DNA of 64,000 nt from Entoloma clypeatum (taxonomy: Eukaryota > Basidiomycota > Agaricomycetes > Agaricales > Entolomataceae): NCBI GenBank assembly GCA_963565915.1, contig OY751489.1:1240001-1304000 (forward strand), written 5' to 3'. Numbering within the stretch: the first letter of the stretch is position 1; each line of letters begins with the position of its first letter. This document shows, piece by piece, positions 28,704-54,780 of the stretch. The notes under the pieces were generated by a model, which was not told where the DNA came from, searched no databases, and saw only the letters and a program-made list of their open reading frames with translations. The position numbers were made by a program, and so were the translations under genes.

Positions 28704-30195
28704 GCGACGACATCAACTCTCCGGCTCTCTTCCCCTATGCACCCAGCCAGGTATGGAGGGCTTTAATGGGCACAGTTCCGAGATTCTGTACCCATGTTGT
28801 TATCCATGTCGACTCTCCCGACTTCTCGTCCGCAAGTAATTGTCCAAAGAATTACCAATCGACTTTACGGTCACTAATAGAACACCCCTTTGTTCCTTTG
28901 CAACACTTTAGTTCGACTTCTAGAAAGCCCTCGAATATCCTGGAGAGTGTCAATGCTGAGCCCTGGCGGTAGTTGCACCGGGAACATCACGGAATACTTA
29001 GTGGTCATAGAGGTTGTATCTTGGCGTGCTTGCTTTCATCTGCAGCACACCGATGAGCACCCAGCGGGTGGGGCAGCAGCATTTTGACACCGCCAGGGCA
29101 TCCAGTGGAAAGTTTCTGTGATAACATAAGCGCGGACGTGAGATTTAAGCTGTGATGACAGGCCAGCGGAGTCAGCCCACGAACAGGTAACACTTAATCT
29201 GACAGCTGGGCTGATTGTCGGCATAATATTACTTTCGGCTTATTGGGGTGCTCGGGTCGTGGGTACAGGTACAGCTGGGTATGGGTATGGGGATGGGTAT
29301 GCATTTCGGGACCCCCAATAACCATGTTGGAGTGTTAGACGGGTTTTGTGAAGTATGTTCTGGCTGCCTCCAGAGGTCCATAGATGCCAACCATATTTAT
29401 ACCCATGGGAGCCTGTAAACCTGTCCATGGCTGCAGGTACAGGTTGACCCAAAGGTATCCGAGGGTTACCTGTGGCATTCACTGACACTGGGATAGGTAT
29501 AGGCACTAGGGCTGCTACTAGCAGCTCATAATTTACAAGGGATGAACACAGCAGGAAATTAGATTGAAGAGTCTACAAAGGAGTCTACAAAGGAACCAAG
29601 GATGAAGAAGAGCTCCAGTGTGAAGGAGAATTTTGTGGGATGAGGGTTGGTGGGCATGGACAATCTCCCAGCTCCCAAGGGGAGTATTTCCGTCCCGTCG
29701 GGGCCGGCTTTGTCTTGGAGGCTGCACCCTATCTGCATCCTGTGAGCTGACTGTCTGGACATGCATGCCAAGGTCTGCAAGACTCTATATTCCCATCACA
29801 TGAAAAAGGTTTCCCATGCCTCGGATATGGCAGAAGGTGATGTCAATGCAGCCCCGATGGGATAAATATACTTCCCTCAGTTTGTTTCGGTTGCCAGTGC
29901 GTCGGAGCAACCTGAAAATCGGAACACAATGGGGGAAACCGGGGCCGACGGGAGATATATTTCCCATTCTGGAACATTATCAATGTGCGGAGAGGAGAGG
30001 ATAAGGGATAACATTGTGAGGATGAGGCCCATTTGCGGGTCAGTCTGGAAGTCATTTTTATTCAAGGGCATATAGAAACAAGGGGTGAAATGAAAACAGT
30101 GCAATATTGTACATGATGAGAGTAAAGAAGTATGAGGTCAACTACGGTCCAAGCTTTGAACACAGGAGAAATGATTCTGTGGCCTGTCGAGACCG
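28704..30195. repeat. Repeat-rich spacer with GGGGCCGACGGG motifs
   Basis: It contains one clear copy (29941-29967) and an inverted variant (about 29695-29712, CCCGTCGGGGCCGG) of a dispersed motif, plus GGGTATGGGGATGGGTAT simple sequence near 29277. No gene was recognised. Confidence 0.45.
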
Positions 30196-30199: not shown

Positions 30200-30718
30200 T
30201 TTCTCCGAATACAGCTTGTCACTTAGGCTAATTTCTCTGTATTCTCTGACATCTTGAGTGAATGATCAAGATACTACAGTCGCAAAGAACATACCTGCAA
30301 GGGCCTGGCACATAATTTTGACCTCTGCCACCATATCCCTGAACCTTTGCGCCCCAACATCTTCCAGCAAATCATGATCCCATCGATCAGCAGGCGCCGC
30401 ATCGGTCACAAGGCCCGGATGACTTGCAATAAAAGGAGGAGTGAGATTGTTGTTCGCTTTCGTATACTCAAACACAGAAAAGCGTGTACCCATTGCACTG
30501 ATGCCATACAGTTTGGGAATCATGAGATCGCGTTCAGCAATAATCAGGACCCGCTCGCGCATCTGTAAGTCTGCGCTGACCCGTTTATGGATGTGGTCAA
30601 GGTGGGGAAAAGGCTTGATTTCGAGGAAAAACACTGGGAACTCCCGCAGTTGAACGAGGAGACATGGATTGGGAAATGGAACATGGTTTGGGAACAGAGT
30701 CACTAAATCATGAGGCAC
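30200..30718 (-). CDS. Putative PD-(D/E)XK-like nuclease-fold protein
   Basis: The minus-strand frame has REFPVFFLEIKPFPHLDHI, where an acidic residue followed by x-Lys (LEIKP) at the end of a beta strand resembles the catalytic core of restriction-endonuclease-like folds. It continues with QMRER, LMIPKLYGISAMGTRFSVF and ADRWDHDLLEDVGAQRFRDM. I associate this pattern with an uncharacterised family common in Agaricomycetes, but no function is established. A likely intron (GTATGT donor at 30294, acceptor about 30245) leads to a short last exon ending near 30200. The 5' end is unclear and the left edge of the frame has no ATG. Catalysis is inferred only. Confidence 0.45.
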
Positions 30719-32262
30719 ACTAGGGGGGATTTTTGTGTGAACGACTTATCGGAAAGACTTGGACCTGGGGCCGATGGGGGACATATTTCCCATCGGGGGT
30801 TTGGGAACATATCATCGACTGGGATCGGGGAATGCACTCTGTATCTTGTTCCGTAACGACTTATGGGAAAGACTTGCGGCAGTCAAGCTATAGGTGTAGC
30901 GGACATAGGACCTAACTGGGTTTGGGGGCCTGTGCGCCTGTCAAGTTGAACTTGACACATACAAAGGCAACACCACCAAACAGCAGCATGTCGCGTCCTC
31001 GCGCGTCGAGTTTTTACTCCTACCAAGGTTCATGTTTTTTTCTTTTTTACTGCATCATTATACTCTATTCTTGTATTATGTTTGTCCTGACTTCGCAGTT
31101 GAGTTTTCCGGTGATCACATGGGTCACACTGGGTCAAATTTTGAATACCATACCCATACATGAAAAAACAATGTTGAATACTGTACGGCGGGCCTGGAAT
31201 ACATATATGTATTTTTATACTGATTCCAATGACAAACATTGATATATACAAGCACCCTGCCTCGAGTGTCGGGGATGCGGACTTGATAGAAGTTGAACCG
31301 TGGCAGGGATGCCTCTCGTGTTTTGGATGATTGAAATATACATATATTAGAGTATTCTCGCCGAATGAATAGTCTGGGTGATTCCTGGATTAGCAGGTAG
31401 GTCCTGATCTCATCAAAGCTCCAAATGCACCACAGAATCATTTATTGTGGCACATCCAGTGCATGGATCACTGTTGTCTCTTTTGCCCCTTGTTCACTAC
31501 GTATGAGAGTAGACTTCCACCAAAGGAATAAGGTGGGAGATGCTTGGATGAGTAAATAGGTTGTCCATACTCTTCTCCTGCCTTCTCGATTTAATTTATT
31601 TGATTTAATTTAATTTCCTGGCCATATACACATATAGCACCACATAGCCAAGACTTGGACCTGGGGCCGACGGGGGAAGGATTTGCTGTCGGGACTTCGG
31701 GAACACATCCTGGACGGGGATCAGGGATGCAGTATCTTCGGGAACATCAGAATGTGGCCGGGGCCGACGGTGGATATGTTTCCCATGGAAGGAAACAAGT
31801 GTGGGACATGGGTTGTTTCCGCGGAAACATAAGTATTTGATATTTGGGTCCCTGAGCCTGCCTCATAGTTTACAGAGTCTGTTGCCAAACCATGTTCCAT
31901 TTCCCAACCCATGTCCTATGACCTGCTGGGGCATTGCATCTTCATGTTGCAAAATGCTTGGCTGACGCAAGATGCAGTCAGACATTGGTGAAGTAAAAAT
32001 TGCTGAAAGCTATGAACAAATTTTGGGCCATGAATGGACTAGTCACTTCCCAACCTGTCCTAAGATTGGGTCACAAAGCTGGGAGAGACCAAGAAACATG
32101 TAAGAAGCATGGGATAATGGGGGTGGAATTTGGGCAATGGTCGGATCTCAACCCTTGGCCCTGACGGGATGGGGTGTGATGATGGATTTTATTCAGAGGG
32201 AGCATATGCAGACCAATGGGAAAATTTGGGGAAATAAATCGATTTTTAGTATAGGTTCAAAA
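30719..32262. repeat. Repeat-rich spacer, three GGGGCCGACGGG-type units
   Basis: Copies lie at 30766-30800, 31660-31690 and 31754-31790, each preceded or followed by GGAACA(T/C)AT and CGGGAA words. 30757-30900 also resembles 40330-40460 over about 130 bp, including AATGCACTC and CTTATGG. The rest (31000-31600) is AT-rich and without a gene. Confidence 0.45.
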
Positions 32263-32691
32263 CTATGTACTAACAGATGGAGCAAGCACACGGTTGACAG
32301 TACTTGCCCCTCCGGGGTTGATTTGGAGGTAACTCCTAACGTCATCCCTCATGAACCATGCGAAACAAGCTCGGTCACCAGCTTGAATGGGATCGACGGC
32401 ATGAGAAAGGATCCGCCCAGACAGTGCTATAACTGTGCGGGGGCCATATGAAAATGAGGTACGGAGACCGGGAAGATGGAGCGAAATTTGTTCATATAAG
32501 CCTGTAGTGGCTAAGATGTCATACCACTCATGTCGGGCTTGTGAATCTTTATGGCAGGGAGTCTGGCAATTGCAAATGATGGAAACACCTGAGAATGGAG
32601 TACACCAAGTCTCGAGGACCTTCGAGATGTGAGCTGGTTCCCGGAGATGAGAAGGATCGTCCTTGAGCCGTTCGAGCATAGTGAGGCCGAC
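32263..32691 (-). pseudogene. TET/JBP-like 2OG-Fe(II) dioxygenase, catalytic 3' part
   Basis: This is the 3' half of the dioxygenase gene whose 5' half lies at 38837-40109; gypsy element A separates them. It holds the double-stranded beta-helix core. The iron-binding HxD is CHKD (nt 32545-32553), the distal His lies in ALSGRILSHAV (about 32401), and the 2-oxoglutarate-binding region is DRACFAWFMRDDV. The neighbouring HEWYDILATTGLYEQ and LPGLRTSFSYG are also characteristic of fungal TET/JBP proteins, which oxidise 5-methylcytosine in DNA. All predicted metal ligands are intact. The function is inferred from family knowledge. As it stands the exon cannot be expressed with its N terminus. Confidence 0.8.
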
Positions 32692-32980
32692 TGTTGAGGC
32701 GACGCTAAGTCAAACGACGTCGCGAGCCCAAACTTAGGAATGAAGTGGAAAGATGATAAGAGAACTGTATTGCCAAGAGACCCAGCGGGAATCTCAAGAG
32801 AACAAGCTATCGAATACAAGTGAAAGTACCCTACTTATATATGTAAATTCCATGAGGCTGCATTGTGGCAGCGTCATGCTGCGCGATAATGATAAGATGT
32901 CCTCATGTATGATATGATGTAGATAAGATAAGATCAAGATAAGATAAGATAAAGTGAAAAGTGAAAATATGATCATAACA
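32692..32980 (-). repeat. 3' LTR of element A
   Basis: 289 bp. It adjoins the polypurine tract AAAGGGGGTAA read on minus (32981-32991), which follows the pol stop. Confidence 0.93.
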
Positions 32981-32991
32981 TTACCCCCTTT

Positions 32992-35900
32992 CTAGATCTT
33001 GACTTCCAGGCGAGATATGATGTCGTCCGGGGTGTCCGTGAAATTCTCATATGGTTTAAATTCCAATCCTTCAAAGATGTTTGCGCGTAAGCGCCGGGGT
33101 GCATTCGGGTTTAATTTAAAGAAGTCCTCCACTGCTTCCTTGGCATGTTCTAGGTGATCCTCGGGTTCCCATGTGTTGTGGTCCTGAGTCAGACCCTCCC
33201 ATTGCACTAAATATTCCAGCTTCCCTCTCTTCAACCTTGAGTCAATAACTTTAGTGACATCGTACTCCTCTTCGCCATTGATAACTATCGGGTTTGGTGC
33301 CTGCACCCTTTGTGATATAAATAGTGGTTCTTTAAATAATCGGACCCGTGATACATTGATGACTGGGTGGATTTTCCAAGTTTTTGGTAATTTAAGTTCT
33401 ACAGCGTGTGACGAAATGATTTGGGTTATGGTATAGGGTCCAATCCATCGTTCGGCAAGTTTCTTTAAGGGTCGGTTCAACTTTAGGTCTTTAGTCGATA
33501 ACCAAACTTTGTCGCCAACTTTGTAAACTGGTGCATCACCCCGTTTCAGGTTCGCATACCGTTCCATCTCTTCTCGTGCTTTTACGAGCGCTGCTTCTGC
33601 CTCCTCATGAATCTTCTTCATTCGCTCTGCGAATTCTTTTGCCGGTTCTGACTTTTCTGCCCTCTGAGGTTCTACGCCCATCCTAGGGTTAAACCCATAA
33701 TTTACATAGAACAGTGAAAACTGAGTTGCCATGTGAATTTTATTATTATAGGCGAACTCCGCGGTTGCCATCCATTCGGGCCAATCTGTTTGCCGATGGG
33801 AAATAAATGATCTTAGATATTGCTCCAACTCCTGGTTGATGCGTTCTGTCTGTCCATCTGTTTGCGGATGATACGCCGTTGATAATTTAGTTGTGATCCC
33901 CAATATTTTATTTAGTTCCTTCATAAATATTGCCGCAAATTGTGGTCCTTGGTCTGATGTTAACGATTCCGGCAGTCCATGAAGTTTCCAGACTTTGTCC
34001 CAATATAGTTTAGCTAATCCCTCTGCTGAGACTTCATCGTGTGTTTTGATAAAGTGCGATTGCTTTGTCAATCTGCAAGCCACAACTAATACTGCATTGT
34101 ACCCCTGAGCTTCTGGAAGTCCTACAATAAAATCTGCTGTAACATGTTTCCATGGTCCTGCATGTTCTGTGTTTGCTTTTAATTTACCGGCTAGCAGTTG
34201 AGGCGCGTTTTTTGATCATTGACATCTGTCGCAGCCCTCGACGTATGCTTTGACCATGTTTGTAATACTAGGCCACCAATAATTATGTGTAACCAATTCC
34301 AGGGTCTTCCACTGCCCTGGGTGTCCTGCAACTGGGTTGTCGTGGTGTAATTTAATTATTTCCTCCCTGAGTTCCTGACTTTTTGGAACATAAACTTTTC
34401 CTCGATGTAACCAGAGTCCCTGCTCTTCGTGCCATTCATCTGCACGCAATGTTTTGGTATTTGTTTTTTTCAACTCTTCCACTGCTTTCAACACTTGTTC
34501 ATCAAACTCCTTGGCATCCCTGATGCGTTTTAATAGTTTACTTTCTTGTCCATCAATAAGTATGTGACCTCGATCCATTGCTCGCAAGTGGAAGTATTCA
34601 GGTTTTAATAATGTTACGTCTTCGTTGTCATTTTCCACCCCCTTTCTATGATCGACCCTTCTTGAAAGAGCATCCGCCTTTCCCATTGAGGTGCCAGCCT
34701 TGTGTATTAATTTGGAATTGAAATGTGTTAGATGCAACGCCCAGCGTGCTTGTCTGCGATTAAGCTTTCGTCCCTGCATGAAGTACTTGAGGTTTTTATG
34801 ATCGGTCCAGATCTCGACCTCATGTTTGGCTCCTTCAAGGTGGTGTCTCCATGCTTCCAGCGCTCGAATTATGCCCAGCATTTCTTTATCGTGTACGTCG
34901 TAATTTTGTTCCACGTCATTCAATCCTTTAGATAGAAAGGCACATGGCCTCCATTTCTCATCCTCGCATTCCATAGATAGAATTTGTCCCGTAGCAAAGT
35001 CCGATGCGTCTGATTCTACTCTCAACTTCCTATCCAGATCGGGAGATACTAATATAGGTGCTTCCGTAAATAATTTCTTTAGCATGTCAAACGCTTCCTC
35101 CTGTTCCTCTTTCCAATTCCAGATTGTTTCTTTTCTTGTTAATTTATGTAATGGTCCTGCTACTTTAGAGAAGTCTTTGACAAATCTTCGATAGAAATTG
35201 GCCAATCCTAGGAACGACTGGACTTCCTTGACTTTCGTTGGTCTCGGCCATTGTTTGATGGCGTCTACTTTTGAAGGATCCATTCGAATTCCGTCTTTCC
35301 CAATAATTAACCCTAAGAACTCCATCTCATCTCTGTCAAAGAAACATTTTCCTGGTTTTAAGAATAAGTTGTTTTCCCGTAATCTTTTTAGAATTTCCTC
35401 CACGATTTCACTGTGTCCTTTTTCTCCTTCAGTTGCTACCAATATATCGTCAATATAGATAACTACGTCTCCTTGATCAATCAAGTCTCTAAATATGTCG
35501 TTCATCATGGTTTGAAACGTGCTTGGGGAATTATTTAATCCGAAGAACATAACTGTTGGTTCGAAGGCTCCATCTGGGGTTGTAAATGCCGCTTTCCACT
35601 CGTCTCCTTCTTTGATGCGCACATTGTTATACCCCCATCTGAGGTCCATTTTGGTAAACTTTTTCTTTTCTTTTAATTTATCGATCAATTCCGGAATCAA
35701 CGGAAGTGGATAATTATTGCGAATGGTCCAGCTGTTAATATGTCGGTAATCCTGTACAATTCGTTTCTTTCCGTCTTTTTTGGGTATAAAGAATACTGGC
35801 GAAGTTTGTGGTGACTTGGTAGGTCGAATATATCCTTTGCATAATTGATCGTTTACAAATTCGGATACTTCTTTCCTTTCGTCTGGTGACAGGGGATAGA

Positions 35901-36930
35901 CCTTGGCCTTTTTTGGTACGAAATCCGGTTTTAAGTCTATAGCATGATCCCATGGTTTCCTGACTGGTAATCTCTCCGATGCTTTCTTTTCAAAGACTGA
36001 TAGATATTTGTGATATTTCCAGAGGACAACCTGTTCCGCCGGTACTTCATCTGAGGGTTCTCCCTTAGCTGCTCTGAGCATGTGGATCACCTCTTCCTCC
36101 ACTTCTTCTTCATTTCCTTCTACTACCTCTTCAATTCTTCCATCCCATCTGGTTCTTGCAGTTTTCTTTAAATAACGTGTTCGATGCATGCCGCATTCTT
36201 CTGGACATCTTGATAGTTTAATTTCCGCTTTTTCCCAATCGATCTCTGGATTATGGCATTTCAGCCAAGTATGTCCAATGATAATTTTAGCTTTTCCTAG
36301 GTTGCATGCTTCAAACGCTGCTATCTCCACATGTCCTTTATACCGCATAGCCATGACTGCTTCGTGCATGATTGAACCTCCTTGGTTAAGCGTGCCATCA
36401 ACGTTGTAGACCCGAATGGGGAAAGGTAGTTCCCTTAATTTAATGTTGTTCTTTTTGGCGAAGTCCAGATCTATGAACATCCCTGTCGCCCCTGAGTCTA
36501 ATAATGCTTCAACATCAAATGTGCGTTTGTCCTGCAACGTTTCCAGCATGATTTTCATCATAAGCTCCTTTTCCACAGAAGCGGATCGAATAAAAGATGG
36601 TTCCCCCATAGAGTCCATTTGCCTAGTTAAGTTATCTGATTCATCACAACAGGGAATTAAGCATTCATCTGTAGGGGACAAACCAAGCCTCGTTTCCGAG
36701 GGCTCCCCAATGATATAGTTTACAAGTGTATCTAAGTCCGATTCATCTGTGCTATTTTTTTGGGTTTTTACCTTTTTGGGTTTGTCCAATAGTATTTTAT
36801 TGTATGTAACTGCTGCATCCGTAAGCTTTTGAAACCAAGAATTTACAGTGTCTTTATGTATGTAAGAGTCTATAGGCAATTGTTCATATCGATTTGTCAG
36901 AGCCAGCGGGGGAATTACTGGTTGACGTTC
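32992..36930 (-). pseudogene. pol: Pol of element A (one premature TGA)
   Basis: A single minus-strand frame carries protease ([13 protein letters not shown]), reverse transcriptase ([20 protein letters not shown]), RNase H (ESDASDFATGQ), integrase zinc finger (LHHDNPVAGHPGQW...CDRCQ), integrase core (LTSDQGPQF, TERINQ) and a chromodomain (LEYLVQWEGLTQDHNTWE). One TGA at 34216-34218 follows CDRCQ, and reading continues in the same frame. The frame extends upstream of the first plausible Met into the end of gag. Together with the slippery site at 36933-36939, this points to -1 frameshifting from gag. The copy is otherwise complete. Confidence 0.92.
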
Positions 36931-37972
36931 ACAAAACCCTGCTGCCCTGCAGCTTGTCCATTGGGATTCAGCACAGGCGCGCTATTCACACCCATTTGTC
37001 CATTCGTAGCTTGATGTGCTTGACGCCTCGCGTTGATCTATCTCAAAATTTCCTCCTCCTCTTGTTCATTGATCTGTTTGATCATTGCTGCTTGTACCCT
37101 GCGCTGCAGCCATCTGCAATCTTGGGCAAAATGCCCCTGTCCGCCGCAGTTATAACAATTACCAGGAGCGCATCTTTGTTGTTGACCGTTTTGTTGTTGA
37201 GGATGGTACCCCCCATTCTGTTGTTGCCCAAAGGGCCTCTGTTGCTGCTGTTGTCCATATGCGGGCCGATTGCCCCATGTGTTACGTTGTTGTCCAAAGT
37301 TATTGCCAGTCCTCATGCCTGGTCTTGCTGCGAAGGTCTCTTCCGCTCTGCCGATTGCCAAAATTTCTTCACAGGTGCCCTGCACCATGGACTTTCTCCT
37401 CCCTTGCTGGAAGAGTTGTTGCATGATAGATTCCTTGGTGTTCCTTTCCAAAAGGGTTACACCGTGCCTTTCCTCGATCTTGCCCTTGATCACCAGGGTC
37501 CCGAATTGCGTAATCCAATCATCAGTCTTCATTGAACCTTGCTTAAAGCTCTCAATTTTGGATTGGGCCCATTCGATCTCAGTGGTGGGACGAAACCTCG
37601 TTGTGATTTCACTGACTAGCTCTCGGTACGTTGGCCAATCTTCTGATTCCATACATTGATTCAAACAGGTTTCCCCGTAAACTCCTGCTGTGGGACCATC
37701 CAATCGCGACCACACTGCAATGCACACTTCTTCTTCTCCATTGAATAGCTCTCGGTTGACCCTGAGCCATGTGAGCATCTTAGTCCACCATACTGTGAAT
37801 GTTGCTTTGGATCCATTGTATTTGCCGGGATCCACAGTGACTTCTAATTTCCTTCCATAATTGTTGTTTTGTGGGGGGGGGGGTGATTGAACAGTGGTAT
37901 CGGAGGTAAGGGTGATGGTGCATGGTGTTGTTCAAATTCTTCATCGAATTGGGCGTTGGTGCTTTTGGCCAT
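36915..37972 (-). pseudogene. gag: Gag of element A
   Basis: The reading frame opens at ATG 37970-37972 (MAKSTNAQFDEEFEQHH), passes a run of 11 C residues (37873-37883 on plus as G) that throws the frame, and continues as capsid (VDPGKYNGSKATFTVWW, ETCLNQCMES, TTRFRPTTEIEWAQ). A Gln-rich linker and a CCHC knuckle (CYNCGGQGHFAQDC) follow. A TAG at 37038-37040 stands where element B has CAG, and the original stop is TAA at 36915-36917. The homopolymer shift could be slippage, a sequencing artefact or real decay. Confidence 0.8.
36933..36939 (-). promoter_or_regulatory. Candidate -1 ribosomal frameshift heptamer
   Basis: Read on minus, GGGTTTT sits in the gag frame as G GGT TTT, 15 nt before the gag stop, and pol is open in the -1 frame across it. 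It is identical in element B at 58724-58730. It fits the X XXY YYZ pattern. No downstream pseudoknot was evaluated. Confidence 0.5.
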
Positions 37973-38547
37973 GATGGTGTGATGAGGGGGAGTGGTTGTT
38001 TTTTGAACAGTAGTACCTTGCGTCGGGCGCGCGACCCTGTTCTAACGCTTAGGCAAGAAAAAATCTAAAAGAAAAACCCAAAGAGCGATCTGTTTACCCA
38101 GGTAGCCGATTTACCCGAGCAAAGGAAGATCTAGGAAAAATGAAGTCCACGCGGTCAGATCCCCTACGCGCGCTGGACTGGTCGATATCCTAAAATAGGG
38201 TCGGGGGTTGGAACACCTTTTGCGATCTAGACGTGTACGGTCTGCTCTCTCCAACCGTCACACGTGCCAGCAGCTTCCCCGAAGGTTAGTTGCATCGGCC
38301 TTTGGTCACCTCGACACGGGACAGGCTCAACGTTTCCCTATGTGTCTCAAATGGCAACGCTAGATATAGTGGGTGCACCAAGCGTTTCTCTTCTTATCCC
38401 TGAAGTCCGGGAGATCCCCCTTAACGCTAGGGTCCGCATGTAATAACGAAGTGCGACTTTTAACGCAAAAGTGCGAAACAGCGGGGATAGTGATGATGGA
38501 GTGGGAAGTGTGTGTTTGGGCGGGCGAATAGAAAGAGCTTGTTCTTC

Positions 38548-38836
38548 TGTTGAGGCAACGCTAAGTCAAACGACGTCGCGAGCCCAAACTTAGGAATGAA
38601 GTGGAAAGATGATAAGAGAACTGTATTGCCAAGAGACCCAGCGGGAATCTCAAGAGAACAAGCTATTGAATACAAGTGAAAGTACCCTACTTATATATGT
38701 AAATTCCATGAGGCTGCGTTGTGGCAGTGTCATGCTGCGCGATAATGATAAGATGTCCTCATGTATGATATGATGTAGATAAGATAAGATCGAGATAAGA
38801 TAAGATAAAGTGAAAAGTGAAAATATGATCATAACA
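38548..38836 (-). repeat. 5' LTR of element A
   Basis: 289 bp, five CpG-site transitions from the 3' LTR. The stretch 37973-38547 is the untranslated leader. No clear tRNA primer site was identified. Confidence 0.93.
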
Positions 38837-40109
38837 CCGACTAGGTACTGCTCTGGATGTGTGACGGCCAAGATGGAACCCATGGCTGAAAGGAAGCGGC
38901 TGTTGGCTTTGAGCCAGGAGGTGGCACAGGATGATTCTGTCTTGTATGATTTCGAGATTTCTGGCCGCCCGGTGCTTGCCTGTAATAAGAAATGAGTTGA
39001 GATTGACCAAAAGAAGGGGGAGGAAGGAAACAAACAGAATGGCCTGCTTGGAACCAGCAGGAAGCGATGTCAACAATCCCTGGAACTAGGACTTCACCTG
39101 AGGTGAACAGGGTGGGATCACGTCTCCAGGGAGCGCGACAATTTGGGGCATTGCTGTCCTCACTACCCGGGCGGGAAGAACGGGTGGGTGGGGCCCAATG
39201 ACTGGTTTCAACATGGATCGGGTAGTTTTTCCGTTCCTCTCGCATAAGAGAATCCAGAACTGAAATTGAGGCAAGCCATTCATCCTTGAAAAAGGGATGA
39301 GATCCAGGAAGCATGAATGTTAATGGGGCACGTACATGCGCATCTCATGAGAGGGCATCCGGTAAATACCAGAGGATGATATTTCCATCGGCGTCAAGAA
39401 CTGTCATGGGGGTATTGACCTGAATGAAATCGTCATCATCGGACTGGAAGTCGGGGCCGGGAGGGAAAAGGAGATTGCGGGAGGTTTCTTGGGCCTCATC
39501 TCGGCCATCGCAGGCTTTTCCCAAGGTAGCGACATAGTCCGCCACCCTCCATGGGACCCGTTCTGAATGGGAAAAGGAGTGAGAATCAGCATGGTGTAAT
39601 ACAATAAGTCAGTCACTTTGATTCCTGAGGGCGATTGCCGCGATCTTGGCAATATGCTGACCATCCTCGATGCTCACATATGAGACATTGAGGGGCAGTG
39701 GGAGGTCGGGAAGTAGGGTGGGATCCGCCTCATGGTAGTGATGCTGGAAGAGATCATGGGTGTGCTTTGCAGCATGATATGCTTGATAAAATCGGGGGGA
39801 GAAGTCCTGATGGAGGGCAGATGGGTCTGCTCTGACTATTTCCCGAGCAGCAGGAAAGATTGTAAGGAGGCGTGGGTCCACTGCATCAAGCTCATCAGGG
39901 ATGGGGGTTTGGGGACCACTGTCTTCGGCAAGCATTTCCAGAACGACTGTTGCATCCTGCAGGTTTTGTCGATAGTCAATGGCGATGGAGAGGGTCTGCT
40001 GCTGTTCAAGGACATTCATGGATGCCCAGTTGTCCCCCATTGCTCTCTCGACAATGAGCTTGATGCCAGCATCAGAGGAATCGACTTTGATTAGGGGAAA
40101 ATATGACAT
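38837..40109 (-). pseudogene. TET/JBP-like dioxygenase, N-terminal exons
   Basis: Minus-strand exons are 39617-40109 (MSYFPLIKVDSSDAG onward), about 39345-39562, 39036-39284 and 38979 into the element A insertion. Introns of 54 nt (39563-39616) and 56 nt (38980-39035) have GT-AG ends. The second exon ends NIILWYLPDALS, then a TGA or frame slip at 39345. The third holds IVDIASCWFQAGH, recalling the Trp-Phe-Gln segment before the catalytic core in fungal TET/JBP proteins. The last reads SAMGSILAVTHPEQYLVG and continues exactly in frame with 32691 once the element and one CCGAC are removed. The gene sits tail-outward beside the KDZ accessory gene. Confidence 0.7.
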
Positions 40110-40725
40110 TGCGAGCCAGCAACATCAAGACCATAGCTGTCCCCATCATATACAGGCTTTTGATTTTCAGGTTCATGGCGATTGGATCAGCATGGCGATA
40201 AGACATGATCTCATGATGGATTCTGATCGGGACATGTCCGGGGCCGACGGGGGGATATGTTTCGCATCGGGAATGAGGGCGGTCATGTCGGCAACCAAAG
40301 TCGGGATATGAGTTCTCGGTGAAGTGAAGGAAATATTAATGGGATGTGTCTGGGGCTGACGGGGGATATATGTTATCTGGAAAATGCACTCCCTGCGATA
40401 TGGAATGAAAGTACTCAACACTTTGTTCCCAGTGGATGCACGACCTTATGGAAACAATTGGGCTGGCAGGGGATGCTCAGTCCCCTATGGCTCAGGCTTT
40501 CAAAGCAGTTTGTTTATTGGTATATACGGAGGCGAAGTTATACCAATAAAAAGATGAATATGCGTAGTAAAAAGAGGGGAAAAGCAATATTGGATGGGAA
40601 GATCAATTCAGTCTGGAAGACAGCGAGGGAGGAGGAGCGGGAGAGAGGATGATAGGACCCACTTTCTTCATGCCCTTCATGCTGTACAAAGTACCTGTCT
40701 TGAGACCTTGACCATCCCCTGCAAG
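40110..40725. repeat. Spacer with two GGGGCCGACGGGGG units
   Basis: Copies lie at 40230-40268 and 40350-40380. The second is part of a unit of about 130 bp shared with 30757-30900. No coding exon was identified, so the dioxygenase and accessory genes are probably separate. Confidence 0.45.
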
Positions 40726-43700
40726 TCACATGACAGTGGGCTGGGCCTCCACATCACCCACATGCGAGGCAGTCGCGACGTCCTCCGCGACAGTGGGCAG
40801 CAGAGAATTGCTGCTGCATCTGTCAGACTTCTTGCAAAGGAGTCGCGCGTTGTGCTTGTGGATCACCCGATAGTCGGGGGTCGTCTTCCGCTGACGAAGT
40901 TTGGCCAGCTGGTTCGCGACCTCAGGCTCATCTGCTCTCTCGATTTCTCGAGGTGTTTCGCGCTGTATATCTGATGCATCTGCGCTGTGGGATAGGCCTG
41001 GCATGGGTAGGGCCACTGGGGCCACAGCCGCAGGAGCCTCTGGACTTGGTGCAGGCACTCCACCCGGTGAAGATGGTGCAGGAGCTGATGAGCGAACGGG
41101 GTCATTCGAGACAACTGGCGGTGTGGGCGATCCAAGGGAGGGATTGTCGACATGCAGTGCTGCTGATGACGTTTCCCCAGGATCATTTGGGGGTGACCCC
41201 ATGACCACGTCGACGTTGGTTGCAATATTGAGCTCAGCCGGGGCAGAAAGTGGGGTCGGGGACTTGGGGCCGACAGGCAGAGTTTGGAGGATCATTGCTG
41301 CCAGCGTCCCACCTCTAGGAGGAGGGCCCAAATTGGAAGGGGACCCTCCATCTTGACTGCCAAAGCCCATGCAAGGCAATCTTGGAGACATGCCGATGTT
41401 GGTCGGAAGCTTCGGCAAGATGGCAGGCCCGACGGCCTGGCTTGGTCCAGTCGGAGATGACGCCGACGCCCCTCCCAGGCTACGAGTTGGCGATCTGGAG
41501 ACGATCGTAATGTCAGTCGCCATATTCACTGGCGCCGCCAGGGAGCGCGATCTTGACGCAGCGGGAAATGCTTGGGTGGCAGCTTGGGGGATAATGGGAG
41601 TTGGAGAGGTCCTTGCATTTTCGGGCTCCATAGAATCTGTGCCTGAACCAGCTTCAACATCACTGGGGAGGTTGACGTAGGCTTCCAGCAAGGGTGATGC
41701 ACGTGATGGTGGATGACCACTGGGAATTGTCGTCAACGGGGGGGTGGGAGTTGTGACAGCAGGACCAGCAAGTCAGGAAGCGATGAGCACTGGAATGCCC
41801 ATCACCGCGTTGGTGACGAAGGCTGTCAGGGAAGGTGATGTGGGCGGAGGCCCAGCGTTCATACCAGATGTACCTGGGACCCCTGTGACATTGCTTGGAG
41901 TTTTGAATACAGCTGATGTTGAAGGCGGGAGGAGGTTGGTCGCCGACAATGTGCCGTCAATCATCGGGACATCGGGGGATGGAGCCGCCACTCGAGAGAC
42001 AGTTGTTGTCTCTCGAGCCCCCTCAGGTGCCTGCCGTATTGTGTCCCAGACCTGAGCGATGACCCGTTTCATAGCCCTGTGTTCCCGATCTCTCTCCTCT
42101 GACCGACGCTGTCTTGCAATTCCTCAAGCAATTCATGATGTGCCTGTTGAAGATTCCCGACTACCTTCTCCCTGTCTTGAAGACAGTTGTCCAGTTCACA
42201 TACCGTCTTCTTCAATTCCGCAATCCTCTGGGTATTCATCTGCCATGGACCGGGCTTGGCCGATGCGCTCCGACGACGTTTCGGAGGGTCTGTCGGTTGT
42301 TTCCCATCATTGTCGTCGTTGCTGCCAGTCCTTATGCTCTCCTGCCTGACAGAGCACTTCCCTGAATCAAAATGTAAGCTGATGCCGGCTGTGATGAATG
42401 ACTGTACACACGAGGGTTTGGCTTGCTGCTGCTTGCCGCGCTCGATGCCCTCGACTTTCCATGACCCCCGACACTGCGACTCCAGGAGCGTCCACGTGGG
42501 TCGTTGATGGATTCCTTCAGCTCCACACCATCTGGAAGAAATTCAGAATCAAAGAATGATCTCGGGCTGTTCGTCAGCTTTGCCCAGGGTGGAGTGCATC
42601 CAGAGCCTGGATATCTAATGCCTTTTGCAATTGCTTTGTTCGGATGTCAGTGCTTCATTTCCAAAGGCCACTATAAGTGAATCGGCTCTCACCATAATGT
42701 GCCTTCATGAAGCATCTGACAATCTGTTTCTTATCATCCAATTTTGCCTGCAAACAGTCCGCGGGAATCTGAGGCTCTCCATGAGCATCCTGGTCAAACA
42801 CAATATCAGCCTTGTGTGTCAACAGTTTACCACCCCGCATCGGAATGATATTCTTCTCCCCATCGGCATTGGCAGCTGTTTCATCATCCGTGAGGTTGTT
42901 GCTGATGTACTCGTGCCATGCTACTTCACATCCCTTGACAGCATCCTTGTATTCTGGCAAGAACGCTTTCTTGCCACGTCCCAGACTGGCATTGTAGTCA
43001 AAACTATAATATATACATTGTTAGATTGTCCTTTGACAAATCTGGTTTACTCACTGTCCGGCACAAGCTTCATCATTCGTGTTCCAGTAACCCACCATAA
43101 CCGTACATCGTGCGCCCAGCTCGAAATACATTCAGCTTGTAAATTCCATGACCATTTTTGCAGCCTTCTTCTCTGCCATCCTTGTGCCCCCTGCTCAGCT
43201 GGCAAACATAAGAGAAAATCTTGGTCACACACTGCTTTCTCCTCTGCCTCGGAGGGCCCTTCCTAGTCCACTCATCCCGAGCAATCTCCAACTTTTCCCA
43301 TTCGTCCTTCAAGGTCGCTTCCGATTGCAGCCGGCTTTGAAGGGCACTCGACTCTTTCTTCCACAATCCAAGGAATCTCTTTTGCCCTCCGGGTCTCACC
43401 CCATGTTTCTCCAGAACCGTTCTGGTTATCTCAGCCTCCTTGTAATATGCGACCACTGTCTGAAGGCTGGGTCGATTTCCAGGTCCATATTGAAGCCTTT
43501 TTCCCACCCTTCGCTTCAGCCATTTTGCAAGCTTCTTCCAGAGGCCTTCTCTATCCCGAGGTTCTAGCTCCATCAGTCTTCTGACACCTTCCTCAAGAAT
43601 TCCCTTTCTGCCATCAGAATCACTTTCGAACCATCGGTCTTTCAGCTCTGCCACCGCCTCTAACTCTTCTCCAGTCCAGACTGGGGCACCTTGGGGAACA

Positions 43701-43852
43701 TTTGTCACATCCTGACCCTCAGCCTCCTCCTCTCCATCGCTCAGTTCATCACTGTCCTCCGATTGATCAGCAAGCGAGCTGTCAGTCCCATCTTGATCAA
43801 TATCATTGGAATCACTCTCCTCATCAATGATTGGGTTGTTCAACCGGGCCAT
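40726..43852 (-). pseudogene. KDZ-element accessory gene (acidic N terminus, coiled coil, Pro/Ser-rich tail)
   Basis: The minus-strand gene begins MARLNNPIIDEESDSND with a long acidic stretch. A conserved segment follows (WTGEELEAVAELKDRWFES, GLWKKLAKWLKRRVGKR, TVVAYYKEAEITRTVLEKHG). Spliced exons are 43233-43852, 43055-43181 and 42693-43003, with 51-nt introns at 43182-43232 and 43004-43054 and a 71-nt intron at 42622-42692. They read MVGYWNTNDEACAG to FDYN and on to FFDSEFLPDGVE. A coiled coil (RIAELKKTVCELDNCLQDRE) and a Pro/Ser-rich tail (to 40726) follow. Such proteins accompany KDZ transposases in Agaricomycetes; their role is unknown. Lesions are TGA at 43132-43134, a frameshift near 42117 and TGA at 41773-41775. 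The tail may belong to a separate gene. Confidence 0.6.
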
Positions 43853-44007
43853 TTGTGGGGGGTTTGTCCTTGTCAGGGGGAGGGGCTTTTCTGGTTGCCT
43901 GGCTCACCCTTCTTATACAGTTGTTAGCCGAAGATCAGACCCAATTTGCTAGTCAATATATTTATTTTCCCATCCTGTCAATCACCCAGATCTCCACCCC
44001 TCTCAAG
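43853..44007. promoter_or_regulatory. Divergent promoter region of the KDZ unit
   Basis: The 155 bp lie between the ATG of the minus-strand accessory gene and the ATG of the transposase. The region includes CTTATACAG and TATATTTATT. The short shared spacer suggests bidirectional control, but no specific element is identified. Confidence 0.3.
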
Positions 44008-47000
44008 ATGCCAAACAGGTTCACGGTCGTTGACAAGCCCAAGATTATCCATGTTGCAGGAAATGTACATTCAACACCCAAGGGTCCACACGTAAAGCAA
44101 ATGACCTGCAAAGTACCTAAAAAACCAGTCCGAGCTAATATTAAAGTACCCCGCATCTCTGAAAACCCTCTGGAGAAGACAGAACAGCCCAACACCTGGA
44201 ACTATGACTTTGGTCCTGAAGATCCCCCACTCTTAGTATTTGAACCAGAGCTTGAGTCAACATTTACTAGCAAAACCCATACCAAGGTCAGACTCTGTCC
44301 TATGCCAACTCCAGCGATAGCTGAGTCTCCTTGTATGTTACAGTCCCAGCATGATTTCATGGATGAATGGTTGCCCCGTCGTCTTCTGTACCTTAGGGCA
44401 CTCGCATTGCGAGATCATCAAGCATCTACTCAATGTGATCAGTGCTCCGCTCCTGCAGCATTCTGGCATTGTGAGGACTGCTTTGGGCAAAATATCTTGT
44501 GCCGGAAATGCTGCCGGACCACACACAGTAACCTACCGTTCCATCGAATCCATTACTGGACAGGTACTCACTACGAACGGGATTGGCTCTCAAATCTTGG
44601 TGTTGTTATTCATCTAGGTCACCGGAGCCAGCCCTGTCCTGTTAACAATCCTGTCAAGATTGCCAGTGAAGTGACATTCGGAGCTGTCCACTCAGAAGCG
44701 TTTCGGCATGATATTTATGAATCCCCTTCTGGAACTCGGGACAGGCCATTGGACTGTATCCCGTTCACAATCGGTCACATCAATGGAATCCACAAGTGCT
44801 GGGTAAAACATTGTGGATGTCAAGAGGGTGGTCAAGAGTTTCAGCTATTACAGCTCGGGCTGTACCCTCTCAGTTATCAGAGGATCGAATCTGCCTTTAC
44901 ATTTGATCTATTGGATGGTTGTCATTTGGAGAACCTCAAATGTCATACATCTGTATATCATCTTTACATGAAGCTCCGTCGTTTGACCTCAGCAATGTTT
45001 CCCCATGCTGTTCCTGTATGTACTCCTGTTGTACCTATTCATCCCTTACTCATTGTCCTGCTTTAGAACCGATATCAAGAACTCTATAGAATCCTCCGAC
45101 AATGGAGGAACCTCAAGGAGTGTAAATGGAGCGGTGTCATCTATCAGGAGGGCTCCGCCATCGGGCCCGGTTCCCTCGCATTGTTTTGTGCCTCTTGTCC
45201 TCAGCGAGGGATCAACATCCCTGACAACTGGCAATCTGATCTAGACGCCTTTGCCTACACCCGGAGCTTCGTCATGGATGGAAATTTCACTGCGTCCCAC
45301 CAGAGGCGAAACAATGCTGTTCCCGAGAAATGTCTAACTGATGGCTATCTCTACATGGTCAGCGAAACCAAATATCAATGTCATCTTGCTTCTGCAAAGG
45401 AATACAAGGAGGTAATGGTCTTTTCACTCACTTCTGCTCTGTGATTCAACATCTGTAGCCTTCAACATGTAACGAGCACCATGCTATCACTGATAAGTTT
45501 GTCAAACACAAGGGCCAGGATGTCACTGGGATCGGCGCCATGGCATGCGCCCGGCATGGTGCATTTCTCCTGACAGGAGTTGTTAATTTTCAACTTGGAG
45601 AAAGGTATTCATCACCTATCAATCACTCCTATTCATTCTGTAATGTGTTTTTGTGGTGAAAACAGACAAAAGAACATGGACTACTCCTTGTACCATGGAA
45701 TTAATAATAGCAACATCGGGGACATTGACAGATTGATACTGTATTATGATGTCATCTGCCAGTATTGCATCTACCTGTTGAGAAGGGTAAGAGAGGGAAA
45801 GATGTTCCTCCCCAACCCCTTGGAAAGAACAATTTACTATGGCATTGGCGCCTTCCACATTTCCGGTCATATTCCCCAATGTTTCCCCCGATTCTCACCT
45901 CAATTTATTCCTGGTGCTGGAGTCATTGATGGCGAGATTCTGGAGACCCTTTGGGCTGTGCTCAATCAAGTATCCCCCAGTACACAGACTGCCACTCTTG
46001 CAGCTCGAACAGAACTCCTGGATCACCACATCCTTGATTCAACTGGAAAAATATCATAAACATAGGTATGCAACCACCCAATATTGCCCCTCTAGTCAAT
46101 CACCCTCTTTTTGACAGTTCCCACAATTTCCAAAAAATATCGGAAAGCCATACTCAGCGCAGAGCAGAGTGCAAGATATCTGGAAGAACTGTCGGAGAAT
46201 ATCGATCCCCGGTCTCTGAAAAAGTGGGAGAAACAAATGTCAGAGGCACAGGCCAACCGAACATCTGACATAGGGGGCCATGGACATTTTCAATACTCAG
46301 CTGGAAAATGGTGATGAATCCACTTAGCTATGCCCACTGTATACTAACAGCCAGGTGTTCATAGCACCAACATGTGCCGAAAAACAGCTGGAACTCATTG
46401 TGGAGGAGGCGCAGTCATCACATCTACGTGGTTGTACATCTTGGCTTGTTGAGGGCTTGGAGATTCAGCAATTACAGTATGCCCATCTTTGGCCCAAACT
46501 GGAGTCACACTTCTGACATCCTAGGCAGACTAGTACTACACTCCGAGGCTCAAAAGCTTCGAACCAATGTCACTCCAGATCAAGAGCTTACATTGGCAAA
46601 AAAACGTCAAGCCCTTGATGAGCGGATTGACCGACACCAGGACCAGGCTGAGAAATATCTACCGGGAAGGGCAGTTGACAAGATTCTCGATCCCACTAAC
46701 AATGGATCTGATGACGATTGGGCAACTGATGATGAGAGTGAAGCTGATGATGATCAGCCAACACCTGGGGCCAATATTCTGTTCACCTTCTCTGCAGCCC
46801 TACCTTCTCAGCTGGCCATTCTCGCTGACAAGAAGTCCATCTATCTTCCTTCCACAATTGGCTACGAGACGTGTAATGAAATGGGCCTCCAACACCTCAT
46901 TCACAATGAGCTCTTGCTCCGACAAGGCCAGGCAAATGATGCTTTGCAGGCCATAAGACTGGCAATTGGAGAGAAGTCCTTCCGGTTCCGAAATCAACTC

Positions 47001-47520
47001 CGGCATGCAAAAAGCAAGGTAAAGAAGACACAATCCTGGGATGCTATCCACACAGCCGACAAACAGTTGCAACATCATCGGCTTGTCTACAGACAGGCTC
47101 AGCATGCCATGGTTCAACTGGGAGGTGGCAAGGACATCCTTGATTGATACTTGGAGCTCAAACCGGGAGACCTCCACACAAATACCGCCATCCAGGAGCC
47201 CAATGCTCGGGGTCAAAGAAATCAGGAGCTGTCTTGGATTTGGAAAATGCCTGGACTGAACTTCACCGATGAATGGACTGTCCTTCATGAATGTGAGCCA
47301 TTCTCAGCTTGGTGCTGCTTCCCACTCAATTTCCTCCAGTATATAGGGTAAATTGGCTCAGGGCAAAGTCCCAGCGCGATCGCGGAATTGAGCTATGGCA
47401 CAAATTGGCCTTGCCTCATATGAGGGCCTGACTGCTTATGCCTTTTGACAGGCTGGAAACTGGGAAAGATTGAAAATGGTGGCCCTGGGTTCATTCCAGA
47501 GGCTCAATCCAGATATCACA
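44008..47520 (+). pseudogene. KDZ (Kyakuja-Dileera-Zisupton) transposase
   Basis: The multi-exon plus-strand gene starts at ATG 44008. The N-terminal part holds the cysteine cluster typical of KDZ proteins (CDQCSAPAAFWHCEDC, CRKCCRTTH). The RNase H-like catalytic part shows Asp in FVMDGNFTA (45277), Asp in YYDVICQYC (45748), GIGAFHISGHIPQCFPRFSP and Glu in GAGVIDGEILETLWAVLN. The helical C-terminal region (QELTLAKKRQALDERID, RQGQANDALQAIRLAIGEK) follows. Introns at 45016-45066, 45412-45458, 45605-45665 and 46066-46117 keep frame. Lesions are a 1-nt loss near 46039, frame slips near 46280 and 46500, and CGA-type TGA at 47145-47147 before YLELKPGDL. It is divergent from the accessory gene, and the two starts are about 155 bp apart. 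Confidence 0.88.
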
Positions 47521-48783: not shown

Positions 48784-49582
48784 CCTGTCCACTGCATACC
48801 ACCCACAGACTGATGGACAGGCCGAGCGATCACATCAGGAGATGGAAGTGTTCTTACGAAACTTTGTCAACCACCTACAGGATGATTGGGCAGAATGGAT
48901 CGCAATCGCAGAGTTCCAGTACAATGACAAAGAACACCAGGCAACAAAGCACACCCCATTCTACCTCAACTACGGTTTACATCCATGGAAGGGAGAGCTC
49001 GTGTTAGAAGATACCAATCCGGCTGCCAACGACTTCTTGAAAAAACTCAAACAGGCACGAGAAGAAGCCAATGCTGCGCTGAAACAAGCACAGGATCAGA
49101 TGAAGAAGACAGTTGACACACGACGAAGTCCGTATCGGGACTACCACATCGGAGACAAGGTGTGGCTGGAAGGGACTAACATCAGGACCGATCGCCCCTC
49201 AAAGAAACTTGATGCACTCCGACATGGACCATTCAAAGTCCTAGAGAAGAAAGGAGCTAGCGCGTACCTTCTTGATCTTCCAAAGACTTGGAAGATGATT
49301 CACCCTGTGTTCAACGAGACCCTGTTGTCACCATATGAAACTCCGAAGTACGCCATCCAGAAAAAGAAACCAGCCCCTGATCCGATCATTGTCGAAGGAC
49401 GAGAAGAGTACCATGTGTCTACGATCCTAGACTCTCGAAAGTTCCGCGGAAAGATCCAGTACCTCGTCCAGTGGGAAGGATATGGTCCAGAAGAGAACAC
49501 ATGGGAACCTCGAGCTAATGTTCAGAACGCTCAAGATTTGATCCGTGATTTCCATCGGCAGAACCCATCTCGTCCACGATAA
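48784..49582 (+). pseudogene. pol: Pol C terminus of element C
   Basis: The frame runs from [20 protein letters not shown] (integrase core with the catalytic Glu) through the linker ([35 protein letters not shown]) to a chromodomain ([19 protein letters not shown]). It ends HRQNPSRPR at 49582. The open frame extends upstream to 48641, but residues before 48784 come from the unrelated repeat. There are no stops inside. The protease, RT and RNase H parts are missing. Confidence 0.9.
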
Positions 49583-49715
49583 AAGGCGAGTTCTCAAAAC
49601 CCATGGCAGTATCAACCTCATCAGTCAACCACACACCGAGTTCCCCGCTCTAGTCTTTTCCCTGCCCAATATAGCCACCCCATTCTTCTTTTATCTCTCA
49701 ACCATCCTCGCCACC

Positions 49716-49958
49716 ATGTCAAACACCATCGTTACCTCCACCTCCACCACCGATATCAACCCCGCCATCGCCGCCCTTATGAATGAAGCACTCTCCATGA
49801 GAGACCAAATCCATGCCCTCAAAACTTCCCTTGCCGACCTCCTTCATCGCCAGATGAATATCCGACTTCATTTGTTGTCCAATCTCCCCGTTGCCCCAAC
49901 TCCTGAAGAGAAACAAATTCTCGGGAATTACACCAGCACTCTTGTCATCAAAAACTGA
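49716..49958 (+). CDS. Small ORF between pol and 3' LTR of element C
   Basis: An 80-residue frame starts at an ATG in good context (CACCATGTC) and encodes a Thr/Ser-rich start followed by a helical stretch (AALMNEALSMRDQIHALKTS, LADLLHRQMNIRLHLLSN). It lies in sense orientation downstream of the chromodomain, where most gypsy elements have no gene. It could be a third element ORF, a gag-like remnant or chance. I recognise no family. Confidence 0.4.
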   Translation: MSNTIVTSTSTTDINPAIAALMNEALSMRDQIHALKTSLADLLHRQMNIRLHLLSNLPVAPTPEEKQILGNYTSTLVIKN

Positions 49959-50121
49959 CATATTCGGCTGGCCATCAAAGGCCTTGAACTCGCCGTAGCC
50001 ATCAACGAGGAGTTGATATATGATTGGAGCCTCAAGGAAAGTCCGAACTGGTCCGATCCCGGCAACAACGAGGGATGGGGACAGTGACTCTGTGAGGACA
50101 CAGAGCTTGGAGAGGGGAACA

Positions 50122-50523
50122 TGTTACGGACTCTACGGTATGAGGACCACATCATATCTTTTACTTATCAGCCCGACTCGGCACCCTCTTACGAACTCAC
50201 TATGTCCAATGTCTACTTTTGCAACCTTTGATTCCCAGTCTGACTCATTACATTACTTCGTCATCCCCTTTAGTATACTTCGCTCCCGGGCTGACTCACC
50301 TTCCGCAGTCAGCTTACTCACTGTACATAGCCTTCCACAGTCGCCTTACTCATGTGCACTGCCCTCCGCAGTACTGACTCATCCGCTACCGCCTATAGTC
50401 AGTATCTATATAAACCTCTTGTACTGTAGTAGATTCCTTAGATTTAGCAATCACTTTGCTCTTCGCCTTTCCACTTTCCTGCATACTCTGCCCGAACCTT
50501 GGAACAGTTTGTTAAGCATAACA
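50122..50523 (+). repeat. 3' LTR of element C
   Basis: 402 bp beginning TGTTACGGACTC and ending GTTAAGCATAACA. It is directly preceded by a purine-rich tract. It contains short repeats of GACTCA(C/T)(C/T)(C/T) and CTCCGCAGT/TTCCGCAGT. Confidence 0.75.
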
Positions 50524-50629
50524 CCCATGATGATTGATGAAACATTGGAACTTGCCGACCCAGCAACAGCCAAAAATCGAAAAATATCTGAAGTCCCCAT
50601 CACGTCTTCTTGCCTCCCCCCATCTCCTC

Positions 50630-51200
50630 CCTCCACTCCCTCGTCCCTCCCTCCTCCTCCCTGGATGCCTCCTCCCTCTGGCCACATGTGGGCCACTGAG
50701 GCCATGTATAGGTAAGCACCAGGCCTTTCACGTCACGTCAGACCACTGACGAAACACGCAACAACAGTGGGGCACACGCAGGAACGGCAGGTACATGAGG
50801 CACCACAGGACACGCGACAATGGTGCAGGATGCGCAAGACTGGCATGACATGCAAGAAACAGTGGGACACACATGAGAAACGGCAGGACACACGTGAGAA
50901 TGGCGGGACACGCAAGAAATGGTGGGTGGCACGTGAGAAACGGCACAGGACCCACAACAATGATGCGAGAAATGGCACAGTGGGAGGCGCGCGAGAAGCA
51001 CTGGAGAGGTGAGAATGGCAGGACACACATGAGTAACGGTGCAGGACACACGAGAACAGGGCCACCCGTGACAACGGTACATGACACGTGACAATGGCAG
51101 GATACACGAACAATGGCAGTGGACACGTGAGAAACAGCGGTGGACACACAGGGAGGCGTGCGAGAGCAGCGGAGACGCACCGAGCGATGCGAGGGAGGGA
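50630..51200. repeat. Degenerate minisatellite, copy 2
   Basis: After CTCCCTCCTCC simple sequence and the shared lead-in GTAAGCACCAGGCCTTTCAC come more than 20 imperfect units such as GAGAAACGGCAGGACACAC. The family matches 1420-1855. Open frames on both strands are by-products. Confidence 0.7.
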
Positions 51201-51540
51201 TTATAATTCCTCCCTTGCATCAAATGATAATCTTTTGCACTACCCGAATTATAATGTTGTAAGGCCCTTACATTATATTATGATACATACATTTTTATGT
51301 GAGTCCCTTAAAATCGTGTAATGAATTATCATACTGTTACAAGGACACCTCTTTGACTGATGAGTACCAACTCAAAAACACCAATGTATTACTTGAGGCA
51401 GGGTCTGTACATGACTGCTGCTTGAAAACACTTGGAGGTGTCTTGGAAGACTGAAGACTGAGGTAGATTTCTTGAATGCTTGGATATATGTCTTGAAAGG
51501 TGTCTTGGAATACTTGAGCATTGAAAGGGCCAAGACAGTG

Positions 51541-54121: not shown

Positions 54122-54466
54122 ACAGTGTCAAGAACAATGGAATTCTCTTGGAAATCATGAACCCTTGAGAGCCTTGAGAGGTATCTTGAGTCTTGAATGC
54201 CTTGAACACCATCTTGAGATCTTGGAAATTCCTCAAGAAACTTCAAGACATTTCAAGAAAAGTTCAAGTAAAAAGACATTTTGCTGATGTGGGTGCAGCA
54301 TCAGCAACTTGTCTCCTCACTGCATACACACGACGGCCGCTAAGCCCCATGGCTCCTTATAGTGTGCTTTTGACCCACCTTCCACTCCCTTTTCAGATTT
54401 CCTCTCTGGACGATCAAGAATCTGCGACACCACAGAACTCGGCACATGTGCAGTGTCTTTACCACC

Positions 54467-54780
54467 TGTCTAGGCAATGCTAAGTCAAACGATGTCGCGA
54501 GCCCAAACTTAGGAATGAAGTGGTGAAGTGGTAAGAGAACTGTATTGCCAAGACCCAGCAGGAATCTCAAGAGAACAAGCTATCGAATACAAGTGAAAGT
54601 ACCCTACTTATATATGTAAATACCATGAGGCTGCATTGAAGCGTCATGCTATGTGACTCTGGATCCTTTGCATCCTGCTGTGTTGTAATGATAAGATGTC
54701 CTCATGTACAACACGATGTAGATAAGATAAGATTGAGATAAGATAAGATAAAGTGAAAAAGTGAAAATACGATCATAACA
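54467..54780 (-). repeat. 3' LTR of element B
   Basis: 314 bp, TGTCTAGGC...ATCATAACA. It is similar to the element A LTR with small indels, including about 25 extra bp near 54650-54690. Confidence 0.88.

Follow-up and report, generated by a model that had tools for sequence, protein, structure and literature searches.

Introduction

Work by Iyer et al. in 2014 reportedly described elements in which TET/JBP genes accompany a KDZ transposase, and its abstract is said to name a divergent HMG domain. In the parts of Kojima 2025 (PMC12730594) drawn on here, TET-positive Kyakuja elements are given 7-bp target-site duplications and 5'-CA..TG-3' termini, escape from methylation silencing is proposed for TET-positive elements, and extra genes are reported for other TET-positive superfamilies, namely a third protein in PHISTA and an alpha-kinase in IS3EU. 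Passages of a second source (PMC12477816) refer to Iyer 2014 on the subject of fungal accessory genes and describe giant KDZ elements of up to 30.3 kb in Ectocarpus and of 31.7 kb in Chlamydomonas, and a passage of a third (PMC8290104) refers to terminal inverted repeat (TIR) motifs that KDZ and Plavaka elements have in Marasmius. Here we compare with these systems a stretch of 64,000 nucleotides from Entoloma clypeatum (G000:C8:1240001-1304000, hereafter the window, in a genome of 60.1 Mb and 20 contigs), which very probably contains a dead copy, shortened by an internal deletion, of a ~28-kb Kyakuja-branch KDZ DNA transposon carrying a TET/JBP dioxygenase. Because TET capture by KDZ transposons has been published, this headline is not new; the protease and zinc-cluster cargo of fuller copies may be a new variant of the published TET-positive element.

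Results

Alignment of the window to seven regions read at other copies of its acidic exon, with exon borders taken from our own reading of the sequence, revealed homology to a copy at C2:5099767-5127704 (the C2 copy) that reaches 95-98% over kilobases, far beyond chance, and extends to about 48784 in the window. The C2 copy is 27.9 kb long with both ends and the perfect 7-bp duplication ACTAAGT; a second copy (C6:4425561-4454327), 28.8 kb including a nested gypsy, has both ends and a perfect CCTTTCT, and a third (C14:3247802-3280842), 33.0 kb with both ends, a perfect CCACATA, such that three of the four relatives with both ends carry a perfect 7-bp duplication. These relatives have the termini CAGGGC...CATGTG, of which the window keeps the left one; the right terminus, the remainder of the right-hand repeat region and a partner for the presumed left duplication were not found within it. 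Imperfect inverted similarity lies ~30 bases inside the ends (score 40 versus 27.5 for the best of 200 shuffles), and the outermost bases form no inverted repeat beyond CA. Genome-wide, the 357-base left terminus used as a query gave 34 matches, 10 of which (window included) start at base 1 and reach base 351 or beyond. The earlier note, written from the window's sequence, had set the limits of a unit at 32263..47520, and that unit is real, but its span was drawn too narrowly on both sides (Table 1).

The cargo is collinear between copies. In the C2 copy, the order is TET (-), Zn-cluster gene A (-), Zn-cluster gene B (-), Ulp1-like protease (+), acidic helical gene (-) and CxC2-KDZ transposase (+), followed by ~9 kb of repeat-rich DNA in which the one open reading frame (ORF) scanned (347 amino acids) had no Pfam match. 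The C6 copy has the same order. A mobile unit joining KDZ and TET/JBP, as had been proposed, thus recurs in two two-ended copies with target duplications, but the proposed count of three genes is not supported, as fuller copies hold about six. The 33.0-kb C14 copy gave no TET, Zn-gene or protease match, with 3270001-3280599 of it not read.

Profile searches, the gypsy long terminal repeats (LTRs), the CCGAC flanks and the empty site in the C2 relative together bear out the core of the earlier sequence reading. Tet_JBP (PF12851) matched 32263-32709 (-) at 52.7 bits (cut-off 34.9), and the exon holds HKD, a downstream SHAV and DRACFAWFMRDDV, so the TET/JBP-like dioxygenase with its HxD...H ligands kept the family placement on which it had been staked in advance. 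The KDZ transposase with its CxC2 part is likewise placed, with 85.7 bits for PF18758 in 45574-46059 (+; cut-off 26.6) and 74.5 bits for PF18803 (cut-off 27). The later gypsy insertion that splits TET was also correctly recognized: its LTRs are 98% alike, it matches RVT_1, RNase H, integrase, chromo and gag-type families, and the 5-bp repeat CCGAC stands on both sides of it. Relative to the C2 copy, the transposase frame carries two single-base indels (frameshifts) and has lost 79 bp at about 47381. The lesions of the window copy comprise the gypsy in TET, these KDZ frameshifts and the 79-bp loss, a missing right end and an internal deletion of 6.5 kb.

Table 1. Features of the element copy and its immediate surroundings, in window coordinates.
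Position	Strand	Feature	Remark
29087..29093	.	Presumed left 7-bp target-site duplication, ACACCGC	Inferred from 7-bp duplications at three relatives
29094..29450	+	Left terminus, 5'-CAGGGCATCCAG...	Homology of four copies (window included) stops at 29094
30661..31915	.	Direct (30754/31650) and inverted (arms 30661-30726 with 31850-31915) subterminal repeats	
32263..32690	-	TET/JBP catalytic exon, H-x-D ... H ligands	PF12851; cut from 5' exons by gypsy
32691..38836	-	Ty3/gypsy retrotransposon inside TET, outside the unit	LTRs 32691-32980 and 38547-38836
38837..40109	-	TET/JBP 5' exons	Collinear with C2 copy
40726..42512	-	Zn-cluster gene A, 3' part (coding weakly supported), severed from six-cysteine segment	Continues into CLNC...C ORF in C2 copy
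42512..42513	.	Junction of 6.5-kb internal deletion fusing two genes	Window 42513 = C2b 11027; window 42512 = C2b 17550
42513..43852	-	Acidic helical gene, 5' part, truncated	Predicted helical domain about 43259-43681
44008..47520	+	CxC2-KDZ transposase gene, several exons	Disabled here; exceeds the cut-offs of PF18803 and PF18758
47521..48784	+	Start of right-hand repeat region	
48785..50523	+	5'-truncated gypsy remnant adjoining broken right side, outside the unit	SH3_Tf2-1 and chromo domains

We next evaluated coding constraint as ratios of nonsynonymous to synonymous substitution (dN/dS, Nei-Gojobori), which ignore a strong CpG bias and in some pairs rest on few differing sites. Against the C2 copy, ratios were 0.12-0.42 for the TET catalytic exon (8 comparisons), 0.20-0.33 for the protease (3), 0.16-0.65 for acidic exon 1 (7) and 0.18-0.45 for acidic exon 3 (5); against the window, they were 0.19-0.55 for TET exon 1 (39612-40109; 5), 0-0.17 for TET exon 2 (39348-39560; 6), 0.12-0.36 for the KDZ catalytic exon (6) and 0.32-0.57 for the KDZ N-terminal stretch (7). 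These values mostly suggest purifying selection on TET, the protease, the acidic exons and the KDZ catalytic exon.

The copies also carry a mutational footprint. Between the window and the C2 copy, 194 of 293 transitions fall in CpG context, a rate of 0.172 versus 0.0087 elsewhere (ratio 19.7); the same ratio was 6.0 for C6-C2, 14.7 for C6-C15 and, between two gypsy copies, 4.6. Observed/expected CpG was 0.60 for the C2 element and 0.55 for that of the window; the window gypsy had 0.79, positions 1-29000 of the window 0.80 and positions 50600-64000 0.54. The transition excess fits past 5-methylcytosine on the element and is silent on whether TET acted.

Similarity between copies is uneven along the element. 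In 750-base bins, similarity between the C2 and C6 copies is 85.5-91.0% over 6.8-17.3 kb of the C2 region and 93.0-96.0% over 17.3-22.5 kb; the left-end bin stands at 93.4% and the last bin at 88.2%. Between the window and C2 copies it stays at 95.1-98.9% as far as 21.7 kb, followed by bins at 93.0% and 89.3%. The simplest reading of the C2/C6 step between halves (L019-L021 versus L022-L025) would be recombination between subfamilies. One could go further and take the left half (TET to protease) and the right half (acidic gene to KDZ) as separate recombining modules, with TET and KDZ loosely partnered, since left-only and right-only loci outnumber whole ones and the step falls between the halves. 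We consider this possible though rather unlikely: the window and C2 copies are alike over both halves, the left-end bin of C2 versus C6 departs from the low values to its right, deletion can also give partial copies, and gene conversion could produce the step.

The earlier note had treated the accessory gene at 40726-43852 as one gene, and this turned out to be a deletion chimera joining a 5' portion of the acidic gene to a 3' portion of Zn-cluster gene A, because the two portions belong to different genes in the C2 copy. Window 38837-42513 aligns to C2b up to 11027 and window 42512-47383 from 17550 onward; because these adjoining window stretches lie 6.5 kb apart in C2b, that much is missing at 42512/42513, and in C6, where a gypsy is nested at this place, they are about 13 kb apart. 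The missing segment is whole in C2 and C6, mostly present in C10 and partly in C15, and in the C2 copy the acidic gene extends into it from one side and gene A, which has the six-cysteine motif, from the opposite side. The window copy lost the protease and gene B through this deletion. It is highly improbable that the window instead keeps an ancestral state, with one long accessory gene and a 6.5-kb segment inserted later in other copies: a single-frame window ORF (42332-42646) does span the junction, but the segment sits, in whole or in part, at the same place in four other loci (C2, C6, C10 and C15), the two genes broken at the junction extend into the segment in the C2 copy, and no target duplication or element termini were seen by eye at the junction. 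Given a deletion fusion, no role should therefore be assigned to the accessory ORF, and such genes are better read from fuller copies, as here a deletion yielded a convincing false gene.

Fuller copies carry what the window copy lost. The Ulp1/C48-like protease of the C2 copy scored 21.2 bits for PF02902, just over the cut-off of 20.7, with catalytic residues aligned at H178, D195, Q231 and C237, and these four are invariant in 10 sequences, namely the query and nine of 12 database hits (P0014, P0015 and P0018 left out). Zn2Cys6 proteins follow the pattern C-x2-C-x6-C-x5-12-C-x2-C-x6-8-C. Across the five loci scanned, the six-cysteine spacing of gene A (x7 replacing x6) was found in C2 only and that of gene B in C2 and C6; PF00172 reached 14.8 bits on gene A against a cut-off of 21 and gave no match on gene B of the C2 copy. 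The cysteine part of gene B had dN/dS of 0.45-0.73 (two comparisons with the C2 copy), and gene A, compared with the window, 0.48-0.65 in its middle part (two) and 0.65-0.73 in its 3' part (two). Coding in the 3' part of gene A is only weakly supported, because its dN/dS is not distinct from the controls (antisense, 0.52-0.59; shifted frame, 0.62-0.94). In the literature searched, with coverage excluding Iyer et al. 2014, no protease was found in Kyakuja, and the C48-like protease and Zn-protein cargo is possibly new.

The acidic exon gave 11 matches at 9 places genome-wide, 10 of them in 8 family loci, and has 6 database homologues with an invariant core and no precomputed Pfam domain. The gene has a nonsense codon in the second exon of the window copy, by our reading of the exons, where C2 and C6 are open. 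The protein was modelled as confidently helical over residues 75-215, with a whole-chain mean predicted local distance difference test (pLDDT) of 65 and low values in its acidic and C-terminal regions. Among the matches listed, none to a known fold reached E <= 0.001, the best sequence match to solved structures was weak (a kinase, E 0.70), and no HMG family was found in Pfam for seven acidic-protein members, two of which weakly matched FliG_C (best E 0.012) and one SCAB-Ig. A 28%-identical relative of the acidic exon lies at G000:C14:3974673-3975029, with no KDZ match within 100 kb.

Six-frame profile searches across the genome returned 118 KDZ and 11 Tet_JBP matches, exon-level lower bounds; taking two C15 matches as one gives 10 Tet_JBP loci, nine of which match the element's TET DNA. 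The acidic gene adjoins a KDZ exon of the same subfamily in all eight family loci. Of the nine family TET loci, eight have a left-terminus match that includes its first base within 20 kb (at the C5 locus in pieces, 1-126 and 123-357), and three (one of them in the window) lie within 30 kb of a KDZ exon; partial copies thus predominate among those seen. DNA of gene A or B lies less than 25 kb from TET-family DNA at eight loci, including degraded copies and a small C6:0.76 Mb piece. Order is mostly kept where several genes remain; at C8:3.82 Mb, one TET piece is inverted relative to Zn and protease pieces 53 kb away. The expectation of other copies with the same three-gene order was thus borne out in C2 and C6, whereas the TET loci without a nearby KDZ exon speak against strict co-travel. 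That TET is a host gene merely lying near KDZ copies, as a by-product of transposon-rich regions, is scarcely credible even with no KDZ exon within 30 kb at six of nine TET loci, given homology that spans TET and its neighbours as far as a common terminal base and target duplication, the left-terminus pieces at eight of the nine, and the two fuller copies.

Other observations concern relatives and surroundings. The right arm of the C2 copy (L021 about 4073-9886) contains ~800-base units, direct and inverted, with a 200-base assembly gap, and that of the C6 copy holds a nested ORF resembling the window's Tc1-type transposase ORFs. Two ~3.7-kb loci without cargo genes, L040 (C14:1562756-1566446) and L041 (C9:918840-922488), have a right end and left-end sequence (the outermost left end of L041 was not found) and are possible non-autonomous derivatives. 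One Tet_JBP locus alone (G000:C2:255418-255900) shows no match to the TET DNA of the element and is possibly a separate TET lineage. KDZ loci of the same subfamily also lie at C9:0.84, C2:1.28 and C15:3.07 Mb, outside the set read. Elsewhere in the window are a further Ty3/gypsy element with gag, reverse transcriptase/RNase H and integrase ORFs (7152-11761, +), an additional gypsy pol region (55374-58670, -) and Tc1-type transposase ORFs at 14808-15719 (-) and 60842-61477 (+), both with HTH_Tnp_Tc3_2 and the former alone with DDE_3.

Discussion

Several observations weigh against reading the window as holding a copy of a TET-carrying Kyakuja transposon. L040, one of the four relatives with both ends, shows no clean 7-bp duplication. 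At least one stop occurs in the compared KDZ exons of each of the seven relatives read and another in TET exon 1 of the C2 copy, such that no fully intact element was seen. The first 160 KDZ codons had dN/dS of 0.55-1.17 in seven comparisons with the C2 copy, five of them without constraint (0.97-1.17), and the KDZ exon at 45067 ranged over 0.15-0.93 in seven comparisons with the window. TET loci without a nearby KDZ exon are the majority. CpG depletion is not peculiar to the element, because window 50600-64000 equals it, and methylation would here be read from mutations only. The Kyakuja label itself is provisional, given by duplication length and termini rather than by a transposase phylogeny, and the parts of PMC12730594 consulted report no TIRs for TET-positive Kyakuja, whereas the present element has imperfect inverted similarity near its ends.

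With these points in view, the preferred reading of a dead transposon copy suggests how a full element might have worked. A KDZ transposase would bind the CA...TG ends and move the unit by cut-and-paste, and the element's TET could oxidise 5-methylcytosine on the element, countering methylation silencing. In copies that have them, the Ulp1-like protease and the accessory proteins, which may bind DNA, might oppose chromatin silencing or act in transposition. An extended version, which we regard as speculative and improbable as a whole, would make the full element self-defending with two erasers, TET acting on DNA methylation and the Ulp1-like protease removing SUMO from silencing factors or heterochromatin, while Zn-cluster and acidic proteins guide both to the element's own subterminal repeats. 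The CpG footprint suggests that copies were methylated even though they carry TET, a point relevant to the question of cis protection by transposon TETs. One unit holding a constrained C48-like protease together with Zn-cluster proteins would offer a concrete, testable model of a eukaryotic DNA transposon resisting both DNA methylation and SUMO-dependent silencing.

Because ends, duplications and the pairing of TET with KDZ match published TET-positive Kyakuja, this kind of element is already known. With Ulp1/SENP (C48) cysteine proteases (PF02902), the fuller element shares the aligned H-D-Q-C of its C2-copy protease, for which proteolytic activity and SUMO specificity are putative; this counterpart is 26-37% identical to the 12 database hits and is deleted from the window copy. 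Giant KDZ elements (PMC12477816) are of similar size, with nested insertions and additional genes reported for them, and TET cargo, which the present element has, is not mentioned in the passages covered. The closest likeness is to TET-positive Kyakuja of Agaricomycetes as described in the parts of PMC12730594 used here, with which the element shares a KDZ transposase with TET/JBP, 7-bp duplications and CA..TG termini. The words protease, SUMO, HMG and accessory are absent from the main text of that paper, its supplement being outside our scope, and to the Kyakuja so described the present element adds a C48-like protease, two Zn2Cys6-like genes and an acidic helical protein.

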